41,879 nucleotides of DNA from Lachnospiraceae bacterium NE2001 (GTDB taxonomy: Bacteria > Bacillota > Clostridia > Lachnospirales > Lachnospiraceae): the NCBI GenBank assembly GCA_900110635.1, contig FOEK01000025.1:1-41879 (forward strand), in the 5' to 3' direction. The notes under the pieces are model-generated. The model was not told the origin of the DNA. It saw only the letters and a list, made by a program, of their open reading frames with translations, and did not search any database. Position numbers and translations under genes: made by a program. Shown here one piece after another: positions 14,203 to 23,669 of the stretch (position 1 is the first letter of the stretch; each line of letters opens with the position of its first letter).

Positions 14203-17200
14203 ATGATTAATCACAAGGATTTAAAAAAGAAACTCTTCGGAAAAGATGACCTTGCCAATTGTTTGCTTCCATTCAATAAATCACATCCAAATTTTTATGA
14301 TTTTCCATACAAGGTTGAAATAATTGATTCCTATAAAACCATAAGTCCTTCAAACGATATCTCGGATCAGTACAATAATTGCATAAAAAAAATGCTTTCT
14401 GCTCATTTCCAGAAAACATTTAGATTGCCCGATAAAGAGTATAGTAAGCTCATATCAAGTTCTATGTTTATAGAATGGTTTAATATCACAAAGGCAGAAC
14501 TTAAGACTTATTATGAAAGTGGGGCTGAGTTTTTACCAAATAAATATTATGTTGATATCCTTATCAAACCACTACTAAGAAAGAAATCGCCCCTTGATGA
14601 TAGTGTACTAGAGAACGAATCTGAAATTGATAAAATAGGCGACGTATATGAATATACACCAAGCTCAGCAAATTTTGATGAATATTTATCAACTATAAGC
14701 AGTGAAAAACTATACACCATTTACTTCTATTCTTCTTGTTTATTATACTATTTCAACTATAAAGAATCGTCTAAACAACTGCTTGGGTTATGGAATGAAG
14801 AAATCGCGAGCTATATGAATCCAGATACAGATGATTACCATTTCTTTGATTTATTATCCGAAGTATATGCCCTTGCAAATTATGAAGACCATTCTGAAGA
14901 TGCAGAAGAAAAACAAGCCTTCTATGCTTGTATAATGCTCACCTGGATGATTCTTGCATCATTATATTATTTCAAAAGCAATCGAGATGAGAAGAATAAG
15001 GAATTACTTTGTAATCTTATTCAAAATGAAAGGATGCGTTTAAAACATCACTATGAGAATATTGTTCAAATATCTGAAGAATCTGCCGTAAAAGAAAAAA
15101 TAAACTATCCATTCCTTATTATCGACCAGGACTTTTATAATGATCAAAGACTTGACACTGAGAACCTTGCCTTTTTTAAGCAATCATTTAACACAATAAA
15201 CAGCCAACCCGATATTCTTTTTAGTGTTGTTTGTAATGACGCTTACATTAATGACGAAACTTACAATAGCATAATTAACGACATAAACGACCTGAGCTTC
15301 AAAAACAAAGCTCCTGTTTTTATTATGGGCAATGGTGGTTCAGGAAAATCCACCTTACTATGCGCGTTATCAATCAAGGCAATGCTAGGCGATACATTTC
15401 AAAATGTTTTATATTACAGTCTGTCATCTTCATCAAATGAAAAGTGTGATAAAGATGAATTCATTAGGGAGCTTTCCAACTACTTATCACATTCATCCGG
15501 AATCACTTTATTATGTGTTGACAATCCTTCAAGAAATCCATCACTAATTCAAGCTTTATACGAAAAAAAGGCATCGACAACAAAAAAATCTTCCATTTTT
15601 GCTAATCTTAGAATCGTTTTCTCCGATAGAACAAACAGTATTATTGATTTATTATCTGACATAGAACAGGACTATTCACTTTGGAAGTTTAATGCTGTTC
15701 CTGTTGTAATTAGTAACGATACCGAATCACGCATTCAGAGAATCTCTACAGATCTGTCTCAAATATTCAACAAACCTATTGCTGTTGAAAAATATCGCGA
15801 AGATTTTATTAAGAATGTTTTGGACAATACAATTGCCACACTTGATAATAATTTTGGACTTGATGCAGAATATGTCGACCTTGCAAAAAGCAAACTAAAT
15901 TATATCCAAAGAACAATAACTGATCTTGTACTAGACTTTCAAAGAGAATATAACTATCTCGCTAACTCAAAAATAAAAACAGTCCCTCGTATTCTATGGG
16001 ACTGGGATAACTGGAAAAAAGCTTTTCAGAAAATCACTCCAAATATTAACGCCTCTGGTATAGCTTTATCCGAAGGATTCAAATATGTAGCTGCTCTTAA
16101 GGCAATAAATGTACCTGTCACTCCCGATTTCATCGAGTCTTTTTTTGGTGTTAGTGCACTGGATGCAATAACTTCTATTAATAATACTAACTCCAAATAC
16201 TCTTTTATGAGCACAAATAAAGAAGGACACATAGAATTCCGCCACGACACTATTGCAAAGAATTACTTCGAGATAAACCCTAAACCATCACCCGAAGATT
16301 GCTTATGTATTATGCTTAAGTCAGGGCATCTGGATTCTAAAACAATAGTTAGTATCTCTAGAAACCTTTTTTCATTATCTAATCTTTATACCAAGAAGCA
16401 TTATTTTGAACCTAAAAGCATATTGAGTATTATTTCTATTTTGGAATCCAGTCTTGAAAACACTAACATTTTGAAAGACAACTATACCTTACACAAACTA
16501 GATTTTTTTAAGATTTTTTATAATGCCCCCGAAACTGACAACATTGATTTATTAGATTCTTATTATCAAAAAAAACTGGGAGATTCATTTTATAAACTGA
16601 TACAATCAACCACTTATAGTCAGTCAAGAAAGCTTACTATTTGGACAAGCTATTTCAAATTCAACTCATGGATTAATGTACACATCGCTGAAGGACTTTT
16701 GTCATTTCTTCAAAATGATAATACCTATAAACCAATCAGTTATCGATTAAGCCTGCTCACTAATTCTTATTCAACCTGGATGAAAAAAGAAAACTATCTC
16801 AATATTTGTCATCACGCTATTGAGGTTTATTCCTACATAATTAAAAAGATAGATACAGATGATATCCACAGCCGAATCTATTTGATGAAATTATACACTT
16901 CGCTTGAGGAGTACGATAATGCTCGAAAAATATTTCAAGAGCTTCAAGAAACAAAAAACAAGAAACAAGTCCGCGACTTATCACTCTCTTATATACGTTC
17001 CTACGAAAAGGAAGCAAAAGAAATATACAGAAAGAATTATAAAAATAAAAAGATTTATAAACTTAACAAAACTGCCAAGAAACTCTATTCCGATTTATTA
17101 TCAAGCACTTCTAAAGAAGATGAACATTATAATATTATAATTGCCAATTATGCGCACTTTGAGAAGGAATGTAAGTTCTTTAGCAAAGCACACCGCATTC

Positions 17201-17796
17201 TCTCTCTCGCTAATACTAAAGAAGGAAGCCCAAATCTTTATCGTATTTATGTTGAATACGGTATGCTTTACAATACCTATTCACCTAAAAATATGTATTA
17301 CAATATAAATGAGTCTATAAAATACTTTGAAAAAGCCAAGGAACTAACTGAATCTATTCACAACAGAAAGACTCGTTTATCTGTACTTAAGCCTTTAGCT
17401 ATCTCTTATATCTTAGCAGAGGCTTATGATGAATCCATATCTGTTTGGAAAGATATCTTATCATTTAATAAGAGCGATATAGAAGCTCGGAGTTATAAAT
17501 CCGAAGCAGAACGTCTAAAATATTTAAAGGAAAACGAGCTATTAACCAGCATTGACATCAATCAGAAACGAAGGAATAACACGCCAATTCCAAGCGATGA
17601 GTTTTACACTAAAGTTTCTTCCATAAAAAATTCGATGGATAGTAGGCAGATTAAATACGCCATTACGTTAGAACTCTTCGAATACATTCCAAGTAGTCGT
17701 ATCAACCAAAGCAAATTATATGCCTTAGAATGTATACGCGGTAACAAACCAATCCCGCACTATCATCTAAAACTATTAATAAAATATATCCTATAA
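14203..17796 (+). CDS. STAND-type P-loop NTPase with TPR-like C-terminus (putative defence protein)
   Basis: 1197 residues, on the opposite strand to its neighbours and visibly AT-richer, with Lys/Asn/Ser/Tyr-rich composition: signs of acquisition. Residues 1-340 are an unrecognised helical region with two hydrophobic stretches (about 170-186 and 240-258). Walker A GNGGSGKST is at 376-384, Walker B ITLLCVDN at 434-441 (Asp440), and a sensor-like VFSDR follows. Near 679 is FRHD, the end-of-winged-helix motif seen in NACHT/AP-ATPase relatives. From about 780 to the end the chain is a long run of helical TPR-like repeats (for example SLEEYDNARKIFQEL, NESIKYFEKAKELTES). This layout (effector or adaptor, switch ATPase, sensor repeats) is that of bacterial STAND immunity proteins. 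No known nuclease, TIR or protease motif is seen in the N-terminus. No partner gene accompanies it. Confidence 0.8.
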   Translation: MINHKDLKKKLFGKDDLANCLLPFNKSHPNFYDFPYKVEIIDSYKTISPSNDISDQYNNCIKKMLSAHFQKTFRLPDKEYSKLISSSMFIEWFNITKAELKTYYESGAEFLPNKYYVDILIKPLLRKKSPLDDSVLENESEIDKIGDVYEYTPSSANFDEYLSTISSEKLYTIYFYSSCLLYYFNYKESSKQLLGLWNEEIASYMNPDTDDYHFFDLLSEVYALANYEDHSEDAEEKQAFYACIMLTWMILASLYYFKSNRDEKNKELLCNLIQNERMRLKHHYENIVQISEESAVKEKINYPFLIIDQDFYNDQRLDTENLAFFKQSFNTINSQPDILFSVVCNDAYINDETYNSIINDINDLSFKNKAPVFIMGNGGSGKSTLLCALSIKAMLGDTFQNVLYYSLSSSSNEKCDKDEFIRELSNYLSHSSGITLLCVDNPSRNPSLIQALYEKKASTTKKSSIFANLRIVFSDRTNSIIDLLSDIEQDYSLWKFNAVPVVISNDTESRIQRISTDLSQIFNKPIAVEKYREDFIKNVLDNTIATLDNNFGLDAEYVDLAKSKLNYIQRTITDLVLDFQREYNYLANSKIKTVPRILWDWDNWKKAFQKITPNINASGIALSEGFKYVAALKAINVPVTPDFIESFFGVSALDAITSINNTNSKYSFMSTNKEGHIEFRHDTIAKNYFEINPKPSPEDCLCIMLKSGHLDSKTIVSISRNLFSLSNLYTKKHYFEPKSILSIISILESSLENTNILKDNYTLHKLDFFKIFYNAPETDNIDLLDSYYQKKLGDSFYKLIQSTTYSQSRKLTIWTSYFKFNSWINVHIAEGLLSFLQNDNTYKPISYRLSLLTNSYSTWMKKENYLNICHHAIEVYSYIIKKIDTDDIHSRIYLMKLYTSLEEYDNARKIFQELQETKNKKQVRDLSLSYIRSYEKEAKEIYRKNYKNKKIYKLNKTAKKLYSDLLSSTSKEDEHYNIIIANYAHFEKECKFFSKAHRILSLANTKEGSPNLYRIYVEYGMLYNTYSPKNMYYNINESIKYFEKAKELTESIHNRKTRLSVLKPLAISYILAEAYDESISVWKDILSFNKSDIEARSYKSEAERLKYLKENELLTSIDINQKRRNNTPIPSDEFYTKVSSIKNSMDSRQIKYAITLELFEYIPSSRINQSKLYALECIRGNKPIPHYHLKLLIKYIL

Positions 17797-20095: not shown

Positions 20096-20114
20096 ATCAA
20101 TTATTATAAAAGTA

Positions 20115-20148
20115 AAATGTGACAGCTGGAGCATCAGCTGTCACATTT
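20115..20148. terminator. Bidirectional terminator between dtxR-like and virD4-like genes
   Basis: A 14-bp perfect stem (AAATGTGACAGCTG and its complement) with a 6-base loop, flanked by A-rich and T8 tracts. It ends the plus-strand regulator gene 20 bases after its stop and also follows the stop of the convergent minus-strand gene at 20172. Confidence 0.92.
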
Positions 20149-20171
20149 TTTTTAGAAAAAGGAGATATAAA

Positions 20172-21482
20172 CTACTCGACCACCTTACCCATTGCAGAGA
20201 AATCAGGGATATACTTCTCCACCTTCATTCCGCCCTTCGGATTCCCAGCTTCAAAGAGGTAGGCCGCGTCAAATGGCAGATTCAGTATGTTATAGTACGG
20301 CGTGTTCATCTTCTCGCCAATATACCTGGCGGTCTCTATGTCAGAGGCACCAAGGAAAAGCATATGATCGCAGTTACAGATGATCGTAGTCGCCTCAGCC
20401 TCGGAATATATCTCCTTCAGCTGATTGATTCCCTGTAGAATAATGCTGACATATATCTCTCTGGAACGAATGACGGATATTAACTTCGAGAAATAAGGAA
20501 TTACCGTATTAGTCGCAAAATCATCCAGGATGAATCTAACTGGGATAGCAAGACGCTTCTCATCTGTCTTGTCTGCAATCTTAATCAGCTTGTTAAATGC
20601 CTGCGAATAGAAGATATTTACTATCTTATCGAGGGATCTGTCCGTGTCATCTGTATTCAGGAAAACAGCCGTTTTCTCATTTGCCAGCTGTTCAAATGTA
20701 AAGCTGCTCTTTCTGTTAAATACGTGAGCCTTGTCTGAACAATCAAATCCAGAAACCGAAGCTGCCGCGAAGATCATAATGCTGCAGAAGGTTCTATCAG
20801 CAGACCCAACAGACTTGAACATCCTATATCTCGCATATGCAAAGCTCTTCGGGTTCTCCATTCCGTGATGGCTGAAGATACGGTCCATTGTCTTGATATT
20901 GTCCATCTCCAGGAAGAGCTTGAGCAGCGAACCAAAGTTATGCTCGTGCTCTGGAGTAGCTTCCAGGATAAATGCTATAAGTGCTGAAATAAGAATCTGA
21001 GCACTCATCGGCCAGAACTTGTCATTATCAAGACTCCCCGGACACAGCTGCTCTGCCAGGGTTATGATATCCTGCTGACAGTAGCTGTCACTCTCCTCAT
21101 CATATCCAATAAAATCCAGTGGATTATAGGAACAGGACTCAGGCGAGCCAGAAAAATCAAGATTATAAACCTTATAGCCTGCAGCCCTCAGCTTATCGGC
21201 GTGATTTCTATACAGCGCATTCTTTGTGTCACTGATGATCATATTGCTGCACATCTGATCGATCAAAGGCTCAACATAGCCTGTGGATTTTCCACGGCCT
21301 GCAGCTCCTACGATCAGATCATTATTATTAAGTCTGGTCTTATGCGTATCATTTAACACAAAGAAATCCCTTGAAAGCATTCTGTACTCAGGATTCCCCC
21401 AATAATTGGGCTCCTCAACCGTCTTGCATATCTCCTCGATAGACTTCTTCGCAGTTTTAGTCTTTGTTGTTGGTTTCTTCAT
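20172..21482 (-). CDS. Soluble VirD4/TraG-like P-loop ATPase
   Basis: 436 residues. Walker A is GAAGRGKS at 59-66, Walker B is FILDDFATN, and the C-terminal part has the TraG/VirD4 pattern SVIRSREIYVSIILQG, QLKEIYSE, IICNCDHMLFLG and IETARYIGEKM. VirD4 proteins are hexameric ATPases that bring DNA or protein to a type IV secretion channel. This one lacks the N-terminal membrane helices and is shorter than the usual 550-650 residues. No relaxase, VirB4, integrase or other transfer gene is in the window, so it is an orphan. It is the last gene of an operon with a ClpP paralogue and two unknown proteins. ATG at 21482 follows AAAGGAA. Confidence 0.85.
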   Translation of the reverse strand: MKKPTTKTKTAKKSIEEICKTVEEPNYWGNPEYRMLSRDFFVLNDTHKTRLNNNDLIVGAAGRGKSTGYVEPLIDQMCSNMIISDTKNALYRNHADKLRAAGYKVYNLDFSGSPESCSYNPLDFIGYDEESDSYCQQDIITLAEQLCPGSLDNDKFWPMSAQILISALIAFILEATPEHEHNFGSLLKLFLEMDNIKTMDRIFSHHGMENPKSFAYARYRMFKSVGSADRTFCSIMIFAAASVSGFDCSDKAHVFNRKSSFTFEQLANEKTAVFLNTDDTDRSLDKIVNIFYSQAFNKLIKIADKTDEKRLAIPVRFILDDFATNTVIPYFSKLISVIRSREIYVSIILQGINQLKEIYSEAEATTIICNCDHMLFLGASDIETARYIGEKMNTPYYNILNLPFDAAYLFEAGNPKGGMKVEKYIPDFSAMGKVVE

Positions 21483-21507
21483 AATTTTCTATTCCTTTCT
21501 ATGTTGT

Positions 21508-21561
21508 TATGTGCAATGGGGACTGACCCCATTGCACATAGGTCTGTCCCTTTTTGCACAT
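21508..21561 (-). repeat. REP-like inverted repeat between clpP-like and virD4-like genes
   Basis: Arms of 14 bases (TATGTGCAATGGGG, 21508-21521, and its exact complement at 21527-21540) around a 5-base loop, followed by a diverged partial copy (AGGTCTGTCCC then TTTTTGCACAT) up to 21561. The GGGAC/GTCCC core with TGTGCAA arms looks like a dispersed REP-type element rather than a terminator, as no U-run follows. It lies just upstream of the virD4-like ribosome site and may tune its expression. Confidence 0.6.
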
Positions 21562-21564
21562 TTT

Positions 21565-22146
21565 CTATATTGTGGTGAGTATCTCGGTTGCAAGTCCGAA
21601 GTCAATGGCCTCGTCTGCATCGAAATATGTATCGCCCTTGGTCTTAGAATAAACAGTACGAAGGGGCTTTCCCGTTCTCTCTGAAATAATACGGGCCAGG
21701 GTTTCTCTGGTCTTCATAATGGACTCCAGGGTATCCTGCACTGCAAGGGCCTTGGATGGCTGTGAACCCATCACCACTGACGGATCGTGGATCATCAGCC
21801 GAGCATGCCTGGTCATACATCTCTTGTCCCCCGCCAGGAAGAGTATCGAACCCATGGACGCAGCCGTTCCGATGCATACTGTCTTTACTGGCGACTTCGC
21901 CATTCTCATAACATCGTAGAACACAAGTCCAGATGTCACCTCTCCGCCTGGAGATGAAATGTATACGGTTATCTCCTTGCCAGGATCGACACGGTCCAGA
22001 TACATAAATCGCTTGATCATCTCCGGCATAGTCTGGTCATTCACCTCATCGGTCAGGAAAATCTCACGATTATTAAACATATAGTCATCAACACTGAAAT
22101 ACTGGTTGCCCTGGCTTGTTTCCTTGATAATATTTACGTTATTCAT
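21565..22146 (-). CDS. ClpP-family serine protease paralogue
   Basis: 193 residues with the whole ClpP fold. The catalytic triad appears intact: Ser97 in GTAASMGS, His120 in RLMIHDPSV (ClpP usually MIHQP) and Asp172 in KTKGDTYFDADEA. YISSPGGEV (62-70) is the substrate-binding loop. ClpP forms a 14-mer that degrades proteins fed by a Clp ATPase, but no Clp ATPase is next to it. Setting within a VirD4-like operon, away from clpX or tig, suggests a specialised paralogue rather than the housekeeping enzyme; a phage-type maturation protease is another option. ATG at 22146 follows AAAGGAAA. The upstream gap holds a 14-base-period direct repeat (TTGCCAGCTAT at 22199 and 22213). Confidence 0.9.
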   Translation of the reverse strand: MNNVNIIKETSQGNQYFSVDDYMFNNREIFLTDEVNDQTMPEMIKRFMYLDRVDPGKEITVYISSPGGEVTSGLVFYDVMRMAKSPVKTVCIGTAASMGSILFLAGDKRCMTRHARLMIHDPSVVMGSQPSKALAVQDTLESIMKTRETLARIISERTGKPLRTVYSKTKGDTYFDADEAIDFGLATEILTTI

Positions 22147-22226
22147 AACATATTTCCTTTCTGATCTTCGTTTTAATATGTTGTTATCTATATAGTGTTT
22201 GCCAGCTATAACTTGCCAGCTATGTA

Positions 22227-23027
22227 TTAATTGTTATCCGGCTTGTTCCCGCCAGGATTATTGTCGCCATCATCATTTTCATTATTATCGTCATTGTCAC
22301 CATCGGCATTATTCTCTTCGTTGCTGAACTCATTAGGACCGTGATAAACTCCCTCTTCATCGAAGAAACCATCATCTTCAAAATACTCATAGTTTTCATA
22401 ATCCTCATAGTCCTCGGTATCATCACCGTAGTACTCTTCTGCCTCCTCAAGGGTTTTAAAGGCGTGTGGTTCAAATTCCACAAGCTTTCTTGAAAGAAGT
22501 CCGTCAACCTCACTGAATGGAACATATTTACCCGTCACACACATAAAGGGCAGCATAATCGCGAGATATATCATCCTGCCTACGCCAACATTTACGTTAT
22601 CCTTAAAGCAGCCGTAGTTTTCGCCAGCAACGCCTATCAGATCTGTCACCTCAGCAAGAGTCATATGCCAAACATTATCAGTCTGATCAAGACACTGGTA
22701 CACACTGAAGTCCGGATAAGCGTTCCAGTTTCTATCATCTGGGATAGATATCTCATACCCATTCACACAAGGTTCGATATAATAGCTAACCGCATTCTTC
22801 CACCAATCCTCGATAAAATGTCTCTCCTCATTCAGATCAAGATCAATAGTCCCCTCCGGAATATCACATTCCATCATTCTGTATACAGTCGCAAAATTCA
22901 GAGAACCCATACGCTCTATCAAGTAACTGTATTTCTTCTTTAGATCATCAGATTCACCCTTGAACTCCACGAGTAGCTCTTCCAGCGGTCTTCTCTTGTT
23001 CCTTCTCCTGTTATAAAATCGTCTCAT
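22227..23027 (-). CDS. Hypothetical protein with acidic low-complexity tail
   Basis: 266 residues. A very basic N-terminus (RRFYNRRRNKRR) precedes a soluble domain of no family I know (about 15-185), with Trp/Tyr-rich stretches such as FIEDWWKNAVSYYIEP and WNAYPDFSVYQCL. The last 65 residues are almost all Asp, Glu, Asn and Gly, so disordered and strongly acidic. ATG at 23027 follows AAAGGAAA. It is the second gene of the VirD4-like/ClpP operon, and its leader is the 11-bp tandem repeat at 23038-23136. The charged tail could act as a secretion or chaperone-binding segment; that is speculation. Confidence 0.7.
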   Translation of the reverse strand: MRRFYNRRRNKRRPLEELLVEFKGESDDLKKKYSYLIERMGSLNFATVYRMMECDIPEGTIDLDLNEERHFIEDWWKNAVSYYIEPCVNGYEISIPDDRNWNAYPDFSVYQCLDQTDNVWHMTLAEVTDLIGVAGENYGCFKDNVNVGVGRMIYLAIMLPFMCVTGKYVPFSEVDGLLSRKLVEFEPHAFKTLEEAEEYYGDDTEDYEDYENYEYFEDDGFFDEEGVYHGPNEFSNEENNADGDNDDNNENDDGDNNPGGNKPDNN

Positions 23028-23037
23028 AACATTTCCT

Positions 23038-23136
23038 TTCTCTTCTATTTCTCTTCTATTCTTTTTCTATCTCTCTTCTATTTCTCTTCAATCTCTCTTC
23101 TATTTCTCTTCAATCTCTCTTCTATCTCTCTTCTAT
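23038..23136 (-). repeat. 11-bp purine-rich tandem repeat, about nine copies
   Basis: Read on the minus strand, ATWGAAGAGAR repeats about nine times with exact 11-base spacing; one copy (ATAGAAAAAGA) is more diverged. It fills the gap between two genes of the VirD4-like/ClpP operon, is all purine plus T on the mRNA strand, and offers many weak ribosome-site-like GAAGAG motifs ahead of the real AAAGGAAA site. Confidence 0.85.
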
Positions 23137-23150
23137 GATTTTCCGACTCA

Positions 23151-23480
23151 TCAAGAACGTCTAGCAGCCTTCCTGGTTCTCGATACAATGTTTACAAAGA
23201 AATGTGTATATAAATTCACCATATCGATGACATCTCTGTCGTCTCTGCCAGTTTCCTTTTCAAGATTAATAATCTTCTGAGCTATAGGACCCGTCCAACC
23301 GTGTTCCTTAGCATCATCCGTAACAAGCGGTTCAAATGGCATCTCAGCCACCATCTTTAACACCTGCCTACATTCAGAAATACTTCGAATATTCTCAGAG
23401 GATGTGATCACCCTCCAGCTGTCAACCGTTCTTCTGATGTTAGGAGTATTTGTATTCGTATTAGATGTATCTGTCTTCAT
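23151..23480 (-). CDS. Small hypothetical protein, first gene of the VirD4-like/ClpP operon
   Basis: 109 residues, no recognised family. A Thr/Asn-rich N-terminus (about 2-16) looks disordered; the rest is probably helical (SISECRQVLKMVAEM, IAQKIINLEKETG, DVIDMVNLYTHFFVNIV) with an Arg-rich C-terminus. ATG at 23480 follows GGGGTGAT. It precedes the 11-bp repeat and the 266-residue protein. The size and helical, basic character would suit a small DNA- or partner-binding protein, but nothing in the sequence proves it. Confidence 0.65.
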   Translation of the reverse strand: MKTDTSNTNTNTPNIRRTVDSWRVITSSENIRSISECRQVLKMVAEMPFEPLVTDDAKEHGWTGPIAQKIINLEKETGRDDRDVIDMVNLYTHFFVNIVSRTRKAARRS

Positions 23481-23593
23481 ATATCACCCCATCCTTTCTT
23501 GTCTTGACGAGCAAAGCACCGTCTCGCTTCGTTGGTTTTGTTATACCGCATATTTTCAGGTGGTTCTATCAACCGTTAGTTGAAACTTAAAAA

Positions 23594-23635
23594 AGTGACA
23601 GCCGAACCTGTTTTGAACCAGGTTCAACTGTCACT
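23594..23635 (-). terminator. Terminator after the ABC exporter operon
   Basis: A long stem: AGTGACAG, two wobble pairs, GAACCTG and their complements, with an 8-base loop; a run of six Ts follows on the minus strand. The two arm differences are U-G pairs in minus-strand RNA only. It lies 35 bases after the stop of the exporter gene at 23670 and separates it from the next operon. Confidence 0.92.
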
Positions 23636-23669
23636 TTTTGTCATACTCTGTCACATTTTATGTTGTATT

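Follow-up and report, generated by a model that had tools for sequence, protein, structure and literature searches.

A ClpP paralogue encoded with a soluble VirD4-type ATPase in Lachnospiraceae points to an undescribed kind of protein-degrading machine

Introduction

What would an ATPase of the type IV coupling-protein kind be doing in an operon with a ClpP peptidase? The question is raised by Lachnospiraceae bacterium NE2001 (GenBank assembly GCA_900110635.1), in which positions 1 to 41,879 of contig FOEK01000025.1, the whole stretch analyzed here and referred to as the window, form contig C33 of a 3.72-Mb genome with a completeness of 99.97%. Four co-directional genes on the minus strand, from 23480 to 20172, lie there inside a housekeeping region. 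The original prediction, made from the sequence alone, proposed either that a VirD4-like hexamer feeds protein to ClpP in place of a Clp ATPase or that the operon is the remnant of an integrative element. Our analysis gives good support to a link between VirD4-like proteins and Clp proteolysis, and the operon of ClpP and a membrane-freed VirD4, which is present in many gut bacteria, points to an undescribed kind of protein-degrading machine.

Results

All four open reading frames (ORFs) of the operon were found on the minus strand as predicted (lengths in amino acids, aa):

23151-23480, minus strand: first gene, 109-aa helical protein; ORF confirmed; probable member of the s1 small-partner family
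22227-23027, minus strand: 266-aa protein with a basic head and an acidic disordered tail, a fast-evolving partner; ORF confirmed
21565-22146, minus strand: dedicated ClpP paralogue of 193 aa; PF00574 at 167.8 bits, Ser-His-Asp intact as predicted
20172-21482, minus strand: soluble ATPase of the VirD4/type IV coupling protein (T4CP) type, 436 aa; PF02534 at 120 bits, NF045973 at 262.5 bits

The pairing of ATPase and ClpP recurs beyond the window. Among 99 genomes near that of the window (its own included), adjacent VirD4 and ClpP matches were present in twelve further genomes of the same genus (G003, G006, G012, G016, G019, G031, G034, G036, G040, where they occur twice, G043, G048 and G059) and, outside the genus, in G070, which belongs to another family. 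A scan with a single VirD4 sequence gave no matches, but a scan of a GTDB-based genome collection with an alignment of 14 VirD4s found 341 relatives, and the best 80 of them were retained. ClpP was present in 74 of these 80 loci and missing at L065, which lies at a contig edge, and at L116, L120, L131, L132 and L133. ORF searches and tblastn together gave 83 pairs in 90 loci, a total that includes near-identical loci and three contigs counted twice (L074, L076 and L080 are those of L054-L056). All pairs are on the same strand; ClpP comes first in 74 and after VirD4 in 9, with gaps of about 700-900 bp in four. Homologues are found in named isolates, among them Blautia luti, Scatolibacter rhodanostii and Slackia equolifaciens.

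Since the 14 seeds had been taken from loci with linked ClpP (one of them, L048, from the edge of a contig), a separate sample of 200 genomes of the family was used as a control, and 26 of them had a VirD4 at E<=1e-90. Its VirD4s were sorted by frame length ahead of any search for ClpP, and hydropathy was considered only later. ClpP lay within about 1.5 kb of 9/9 short VirD4s (397-460 aa, the window's excluded) versus 0/28 longer ones (at least 494 aa; three loci shortened by contig ends), the latter being 20 of the 22 from the 200-genome search, seven from the 99-genome search and one from the window's own genome. The short type was present in 9 of the 200 genomes, the window's included. These counts bear out the expectation that the ATPase would co-occur with this ClpP.

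The two proteins also diverge together. Distance matrices of VirD4 and ClpP from 67 pairs, with 16 of the 83 left out as near-identical loci, as L062 or for odd lengths, correlate at r=0.75, and the best of 2000 permutations reached 0.27. The ratio of nonsynonymous to synonymous substitution rates (dN/dS), from the three usable locus pairs of six (two were too close and one saturated), was about 0.12-0.22 for VirD4 and 0.04-0.09 for ClpP, and the small partners gave 0.21-0.49; by these values VirD4 and ClpP are under purifying selection. In the window, G040, G048 and G059, a DtxR-type gene adjoins VirD4 in 4/4 and a GH3 gene is found in 4/4, an HD gene is common to the window and G059, and the order of other neighbors varies between species. 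Identities to the window in the three relatives are 57-61% for VirD4, 76-77% for ClpP and 57-90% for shared neighbors, and because operon and neighbors diverge to similar degrees, we read the locus as vertically inherited rather than repeatedly inserted.

Two further loci show variant VirD4s. At L182 (G240:C1:274274-275509), a short-type VirD4 beside ClpP contains two in-frame TAA codons and is possibly a decaying copy. At L104 (7956-10280), the VirD4 is 765 aa long and its C-terminal extension resembles, by eye, the separate genes that follow VirD4 at L057, L058 and L061, a hint that a further partner family exists.

The window VirD4 scores above the curated cut-off of 250 bits for the conjugal family NF045973 (conju_CD1115), and an annotation would therefore probably label it as a protein of conjugal transfer. 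It also matches PF12696 and PF10412 in addition to PF02534, and Pfam gave no AAA or AAA_2 match at E<=0.1, hence no AAA+ domain was detected. Its Walker A and B motifs are GAAGRGKS and FILDDF, and the corresponding patterns are kept in 81/83 and 82/83 of the ClpP-paired VirD4s. An AlphaFold2 model from a 50-row alignment (predicted local distance difference test score, pLDDT, 89.1) had Cag-beta (8dol, E=1.4e-16) as its best Foldseek match, and TrwBdeltaN70 (1e9r_D), the soluble portion of a genuine coupling protein, aligned with template modeling (TM) scores of 0.67/0.70 at 15% sequence identity. As modeled, the ATPase has the VirD4/TrwB fold together with Walker A and B.

A membrane anchor was judged by hydropathy only, as the highest Kyte-Doolittle mean over 19 residues (KD19). 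This maximum is 1.64 in the window VirD4, from residue 156, inside the fold, in keeping with the original description of an ATPase without membrane helices. It ranges from 0.94 to 1.64 in 81 of the 83 ClpP-paired VirD4s and is 2.05 at L057 and L058, where the segment runs from residue 154 onward, also inside the fold. Eight conventional coupling proteins reach 1.77-2.61 within their first 75 residues, the coupling protein on contig C30 of the window's own genome has 2.61 near its N-terminus, and 25 of the 28 longer VirD4s carry a segment of at least 1.73. In a 52-row tree that left out 41 of the 83 pairs, 40 ClpP-linked VirD4s grouped at a support of 96/97 (41 at 86/64), apart from the eight conventional coupling proteins. 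The VirD4 of L062 (G070) fell on a long branch among the conventional proteins, and its pairing with ClpP may be a separate event.

Of the 83 pair ClpPs, 82 have the catalytic Ser (the other has a gap there), 83 the His and 81 the Asp, and the window ClpP is 76-77% identical to its orthologues at L049 and L050. The pocket of ordinary ClpP that receives the IGF loop is lined by what we take to be Leu48, Tyr62, Phe82, Phe/Tyr112 and others; the numbers used below are those of Bacillus subtilis with Met1 counted (plus one). In the window ClpP this pocket has E29, M49, M83, C113 and T115 and is still largely hydrophobic, and at the same positions ordinary ClpPs have mostly Ile, Leu, a varied residue, Phe/Tyr and Leu. 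Position 113 is aromatic in 2/83 pair ClpPs versus 9/11 stand-alone ClpPs (Phe/Tyr), the comparison set being 11 proteins, two from the window's genome and nine from other families. Position 83 is aromatic in 0/83 versus 6/11, and so varies among ordinary ClpPs too. A polar or charged residue stands at 49 or 113 in 64/83 pair ClpPs and Tyr or Phe is retained at 63 in 76/83; the stand-alone ClpPs have Leu49 in 11/11 and Ile29 in 10/11. By this comparison, the ClpX-docking pocket is altered in most pair ClpPs. The pocket did not clearly separate ClpPs that would use a ClpX-like protein from those that would use VirD4, because altered pockets occur at loci of both kinds. Arg192, which Escherichia coli ClpP requires for ClpX binding according to a passage in PMC7112951, was discarded as a diagnostic residue, the B. 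subtilis reference having Thr there.

The genome of the window encodes other ClpPs as well. The best-scoring one (L004, C38:82002-82541) has Asn aligned at the position of the catalytic Asp, giving Ser-His-Asn; in the same alignment the Asp is present in the window ClpP and in a third ClpP, on C40.

ClpX-like AAA+ proteins occur together with ClpP and VirD4 in 5/80 loci (L068-L071 and L128, L068-L070 being the same contigs as L051-L053). An xGF tripeptide stands, by eye, at about the place of the loop as IGF in G034 and G012, MGF in G006 and VGF at L128, and was not found in the ClpX-like protein of L071. At L131 and L133, VirD4 is accompanied by a ClpX-like protein but ClpP is missing, and no ClpX-like gene was found within the stretch examined at 73/80 loci. 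The window's own genome (G000) further encodes an 871-aa VirD4-ClpX fusion at C46:41869-44481 (L063 14870-17485), near DNA polymerase III delta and MutS-like genes. Its N-terminal half is VirD4-like (PF02534, 60 bits) and its C-terminal half matches AAA_2 (36 bits) and contains KHIGFG. Such fusions are also found in G005 and G033, the AAA+ half keeping APSGCGKT, LDEFDK and HIGFG. In G005, a one-contig genome, a single ClpP was found at E<=0.001, so the fusion there would have to use that ClpP. The drafts G048 and G040, which carry a window-type operon, showed neither a fusion (E<=1e-30) nor a dedicated ClpX-like protein (E<=1e-18), and at the latter threshold not even an ordinary ClpX was found in G048. 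Three arrangements thus link VirD4-like domains to Clp proteolysis at the level of gene content: the pairing with ClpP, operons with a ClpX-like gene, and the fusion.

The small proteins encoded upstream are less well conserved. One or two proteins of about 90-130 aa are often encoded upstream of ClpP at pair loci, and after three profile rounds, s1 was found in 59/90 loci and the family s2 in 37/90. By hhalign, the profiles of s1 and s2 are related to each other (95%, E=3.4e-8), and at several loci a single protein comprises both; a natural s1-s2 fusion modeled with AlphaFold2 reached a pLDDT of only 66.8 and had no PDB match better than E=1.7. The 109-aa protein of the window had no NCBIfam or PADLOC match, only weak ones in Pfam (E=0.083) and PHROGs (E=0.0085), and alone it did not match the s1 hidden Markov model significantly (E=1.8). 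Its window group aligned with the s1 profile at E=6.6e-5 in hhalign, with a probability of only 64%, and it shares its operon position with the 106-aa s1 protein of L049 (E=2.3e-4), so it is probably an s1 family member. The 266-aa protein has the predicted basic head, MRRFYNRRRNKRR, and an acidic tail from about residue 195; the small partners of L128 also show an acidic stretch. It matched no Pfam, NCBIfam, PHROGs or PADLOC family and had no relative besides itself in the 99 genomes. It occupies the same place as the 316- and 330-aa proteins of L049 and L050, with 24% and 14% identity in a forced alignment, and was not assigned to s2, whose profile it does not match (E=0.63).

A motif, [IRKTLV][SP]Lxx[RQ][LIVK], occurs near the N-terminus of 27/91 upstream small proteins versus 17/859 other locus genes. 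It was picked post hoc, so a P value for these counts would be an unfair test, and the set of 91 consists of ORFs 80-330 aa long that lie upstream near ClpP, some of them not true small partners.

The spacers between the genes of the operon measure 123, 80 and 82 bp, and it is bounded on both sides by terminator-like hairpins from a consensus scan:

20114-20149, minus strand: terminator-like hairpin past the last gene of the operon; 15-pair stem, T-rich tail
23591-23638, minus strand: terminator-like hairpin separating ABC-transporter genes from the operon; 20-pair stem, T-rich tail

Around it lie, among others, genes for ABC transporters, a DtxR-type regulator, an HD-domain protein, YceG, IspD, GH3, PEPCK and a protein of the acetate-kinase family. 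In a Pfam scan of 30 window ORFs (smaller ORFs lay outside it), VirD4 was the sole conjugation gene, and no relaxase, VirB4, integrase, capsid or other phage gene was found, as the original prediction had it; the remaining scanned ORFs are housekeeping genes or have no known role. The spacer between the first two genes contains about nine copies of an 11-base unit, TTTCTCTTCTA (23037-23136). In the spacer between clpP and virD4, a 33-base hairpin-like repeat (21518-21550) has 62 matches genome-wide at <=3 mismatches, this copy counted, versus 0 for the reversed control, and it looks like a dispersed element of the repetitive extragenic palindromic (REP) type. Elsewhere in the otherwise housekeeping region, 14203-17796 encodes a P-loop protein of 1197 aa that weakly resembles nSTAND/NACHT proteins and has no more than weak matches in PADLOC.

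Conjugation genes were searched with the relaxase model PF03432 (MOBP) and the CD1110 VirB4 model, with linkage assessed by genomes only. The whole genome of the window has no PF03432 relaxase at E<=1e-8, and contig C30 carries a VirB4-like gene, below the family cut-off, near the anchored VirD4. PF03432 was absent at E<=1e-10 from 11/34 pair-bearing genomes and at E<=1e-8 from 9/13 of those in the window's genus, its own included; CD1110 VirB4 was absent at E<=1e-25 from 20/47. Neither was found in 12/47, most of them drafts and with PF03432 the only relaxase class searched, and because most pair-bearing genomes are drafts these absences are no proof. A PF03432 relaxase is present somewhere in 27/47 pair-bearing genomes, and a VirB4 match in 27/47. 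At loci whose contig was identified by its length, with VirD4 confirmed on it (L087, L128 and others being set aside), the nearest relaxase or VirB4 on that contig is about 46 kb away at L096 and about 96 kb at L117, and none was reported on that contig at L112, L114, L125 and L135. Judged by these gene contents, the window VirD4 does not appear to work with the relaxase and VirB4 of a conjugative element. Homologues are thus not confined to complete conjugative elements, and ATPase and ClpP co-occur in genomes where these conjugation genes were not found, which the original prediction had proposed to look for.

Plasmid searches matched 708 records, with a best identity of 32.6% among the 40 listed, and phage searches 35 records, with identities of at most 34% among the 20 listed. 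Viral contigs gave one VirD4 locus; on these counts a phage origin is disfavored. Some pair loci lie near RepL, DUF3991/Toprim or DnaB-like genes, so some members of the family may occasionally be carried by mobile DNA. None of the four operon proteins matched a PADLOC family at E<=1. Among neighboring proteins, 132 match 52 PADLOC families, a count with no background rate for comparison, and the 25 families listed comprise generic ATPases and a few CRISPR, AriA, AbiD and DRT proteins.

Discussion

The reading that we tentatively favor, with a confidence somewhat short of even, is that the operon encodes a dedicated ATP-dependent protease in which a soluble ring of the coupling-protein type feeds the ClpP chamber. 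The VirD4-like ATPase would descend from a type IV coupling-protein ring that lost its anchor and kept its cytosolic fold, and the ring would capture protein, perhaps DNA-bound protein, and thread it into ClpP. The docking face of ClpP would have been remodeled to suit this partner, the fast-evolving small proteins from the start of the operon would serve as adaptors or regulators, and in some lineages a ClpX-like ring would join the protease. We infer the formation of a VirD4 ring, its contact with ClpP, its action as the motor and the adaptor role of the small proteins. Our guess at the biological role is the removal of proteins of incoming mobile DNA or other targeted turnover. A bolder version, to which we give somewhat less credence, is a compartmental protease outside AAA+ in which the exit of the coupling protein, once facing a secretion channel, now opens into ClpP, perhaps with the protein-DNA complexes of invaders as targets.

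Several observations weigh against a VirD4 ring that docks on ClpP as its motor. The IGF loop packs into hydrophobic ClpP clefts, as a passage in PMC7112951 describes, and an IGF-like loop in the ATPase, which the original prediction had named as the decisive sign, is absent from the window VirD4; across the 83 paired VirD4s, the eight [ILVM]GF tripeptides are scattered, in 7/83. Soluble VirD4s without ClpP occur at L116, L120 and L132, and the VirD4s of L195, L198 and L199 (494-501 aa) have neither a strong hydrophobic segment nor ClpP nearby. By hydropathy these three are a second unanchored group, so a missing anchor alone does not predict ClpP. The pocket residues of the window ClpP, hydrophobic Met and Cys, equal those of L052, whose operon has the MGF-bearing ClpX-like protein. 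The ClpX-like AAA+ proteins in 5/80 loci mean that ClpP may have an ordinary kind of motor there, and the VirD4 half of the fusions, judged by eye, no longer has Walker A and B, so it is no motor there. In G038 (L148, G038:C33), a related module of a ClpX-like gene, c13 and ClpP has no VirD4 near it. Coupling-protein rings are hexameric and ClpP rings heptameric, a mismatch that a direct contact would have to bridge. The same hexamer-heptamer mismatch is described for ClpX-ClpP in a passage of PMC7112951. The proposal that the hexamer feeds ClpP in place of a Clp ATPase therefore stands in part: co-occurrence and the lack of a ClpX-like gene in most loci favor it, the missing loop does not, and "in place of" is possible for loci at which no dedicated ClpX was seen; the ClpX-like partners, in the operons or fusions of some relatives, are the proteins that bear such tripeptides. 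Besides, the L148 module adjoins a relative of an approximately 1165-aa protein without known role, a sister arrangement.

A rival reading, possible and in our view nearly as likely as a VirD4 motor, makes the VirD4-like ring a substrate-selecting or pre-unfolding stage above a ClpX-type AAA+ protein, encoded in the operon, elsewhere or as host ClpX, which docks on ClpP. It gains from the five loci with all three genes, four of them with xGF, from the fusions of G000, G005 and G033, in which the AAA+ half keeps its motifs and the VirD4 half is degenerate, and from the single ClpP that the fusion of G005 would have to use; it has to account for the 75/80 loci without all three genes in the stretch examined, for the scarcity of ClpX-like genes, and for the drafts G048 and G040, where neither fusion nor dedicated ClpX-like protein appeared at the thresholds used. 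Host ClpX in particular fits poorly with a pocket that differs from that of ordinary ClpPs in most pair ClpPs. We consider it unlikely that VirD4 and ClpP serve one pathway without forming one machine, for example with VirD4 handling DNA or a protein client and a host Clp ATPase powering ClpP in the removal of a regulator or of a small partner. Variable gene order and spacing would agree with this, as would small partners that evolve faster, as clients or regulators may, but the altered pocket, the correlated divergence and the fusions of both kinds of ATPase speak against it.

That the operon is a remnant or cargo of an integrative conjugative element, the second idea of the original prediction, seems very improbable. 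The conjugal family score of the ATPase, the mobile-type neighbors of some loci and the relaxases and VirB4s in just over half of the pair-bearing genomes would suit it; they are countered by the housekeeping window, by the own genome without a PF03432 relaxase and the 12 genomes, mostly drafts, without either gene, by the low plasmid identities among the listed matches, by an operon that diverges like its neighbors in four species, and by an ATPase under purifying selection. Chance adjacency of ClpP and VirD4, to which we give practically no weight, is refuted by the contrast between short and longer VirD4s and by the 74/80 loci.

The operon shares features with several known systems and differs from each. 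With type IV coupling proteins (CD1115-family VirD4, TrwB, Cag-beta), the ATPase shares its fold along the ordered part of the chain, as the TrwBdeltaN70 alignment suggests, its Walker motifs and its NF045973 score, but it has no N-terminal membrane segment, falls in a separate clade and adjoins ClpP instead of a relaxase or VirB4. With ClpXP and ClpAP/ClpCP, the operon shares the ClpP fold and triad and an ATPase gene beside the peptidase gene, whereas its ATPase is of the VirD4 kind rather than a Clp AAA+, lacks an IGF loop and goes with a changed ClpP pocket. With phage ClpP-like head-maturation proteases, the window ClpP shares matches to PHROGs families (best phrog_94, 152 bits), but its scores with models of cellular ClpP are higher, at 168 and 167 bits, the scanned ORFs include no capsid gene, and only one viral contig bore a VirD4 locus. 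HerA-type defence ATPases work with an effector subunit, and HerA was among the weaker matches to the structure of the ATPase; here, in contrast, the partner is a compartmental peptidase, and PADLOC gave no match. No VirD4-ClpP pairing was found in the open-access literature, preprints and most subscription papers being beyond the scope of that search.

To our knowledge, all known ATP-dependent compartmental proteases are driven by AAA+ rings, and the widespread, conserved pairing of ClpP and a VirD4-type ATPase could represent the first that is not. Our findings suggest that annotation pipelines file ClpP-linked VirD4s under conjugal transfer, since the protein of the window passes the family cut-off. 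The system may operate as Clp proteases do, though with an ATPase of foreign origin, and if the pairing is indeed a machine, it would show a secretion motor turned inwards, from a secretion pump to a degradation pump. Being compact and having homologues in named isolates, it lends itself to asking what a coupling-protein ATPase does to protein substrates.

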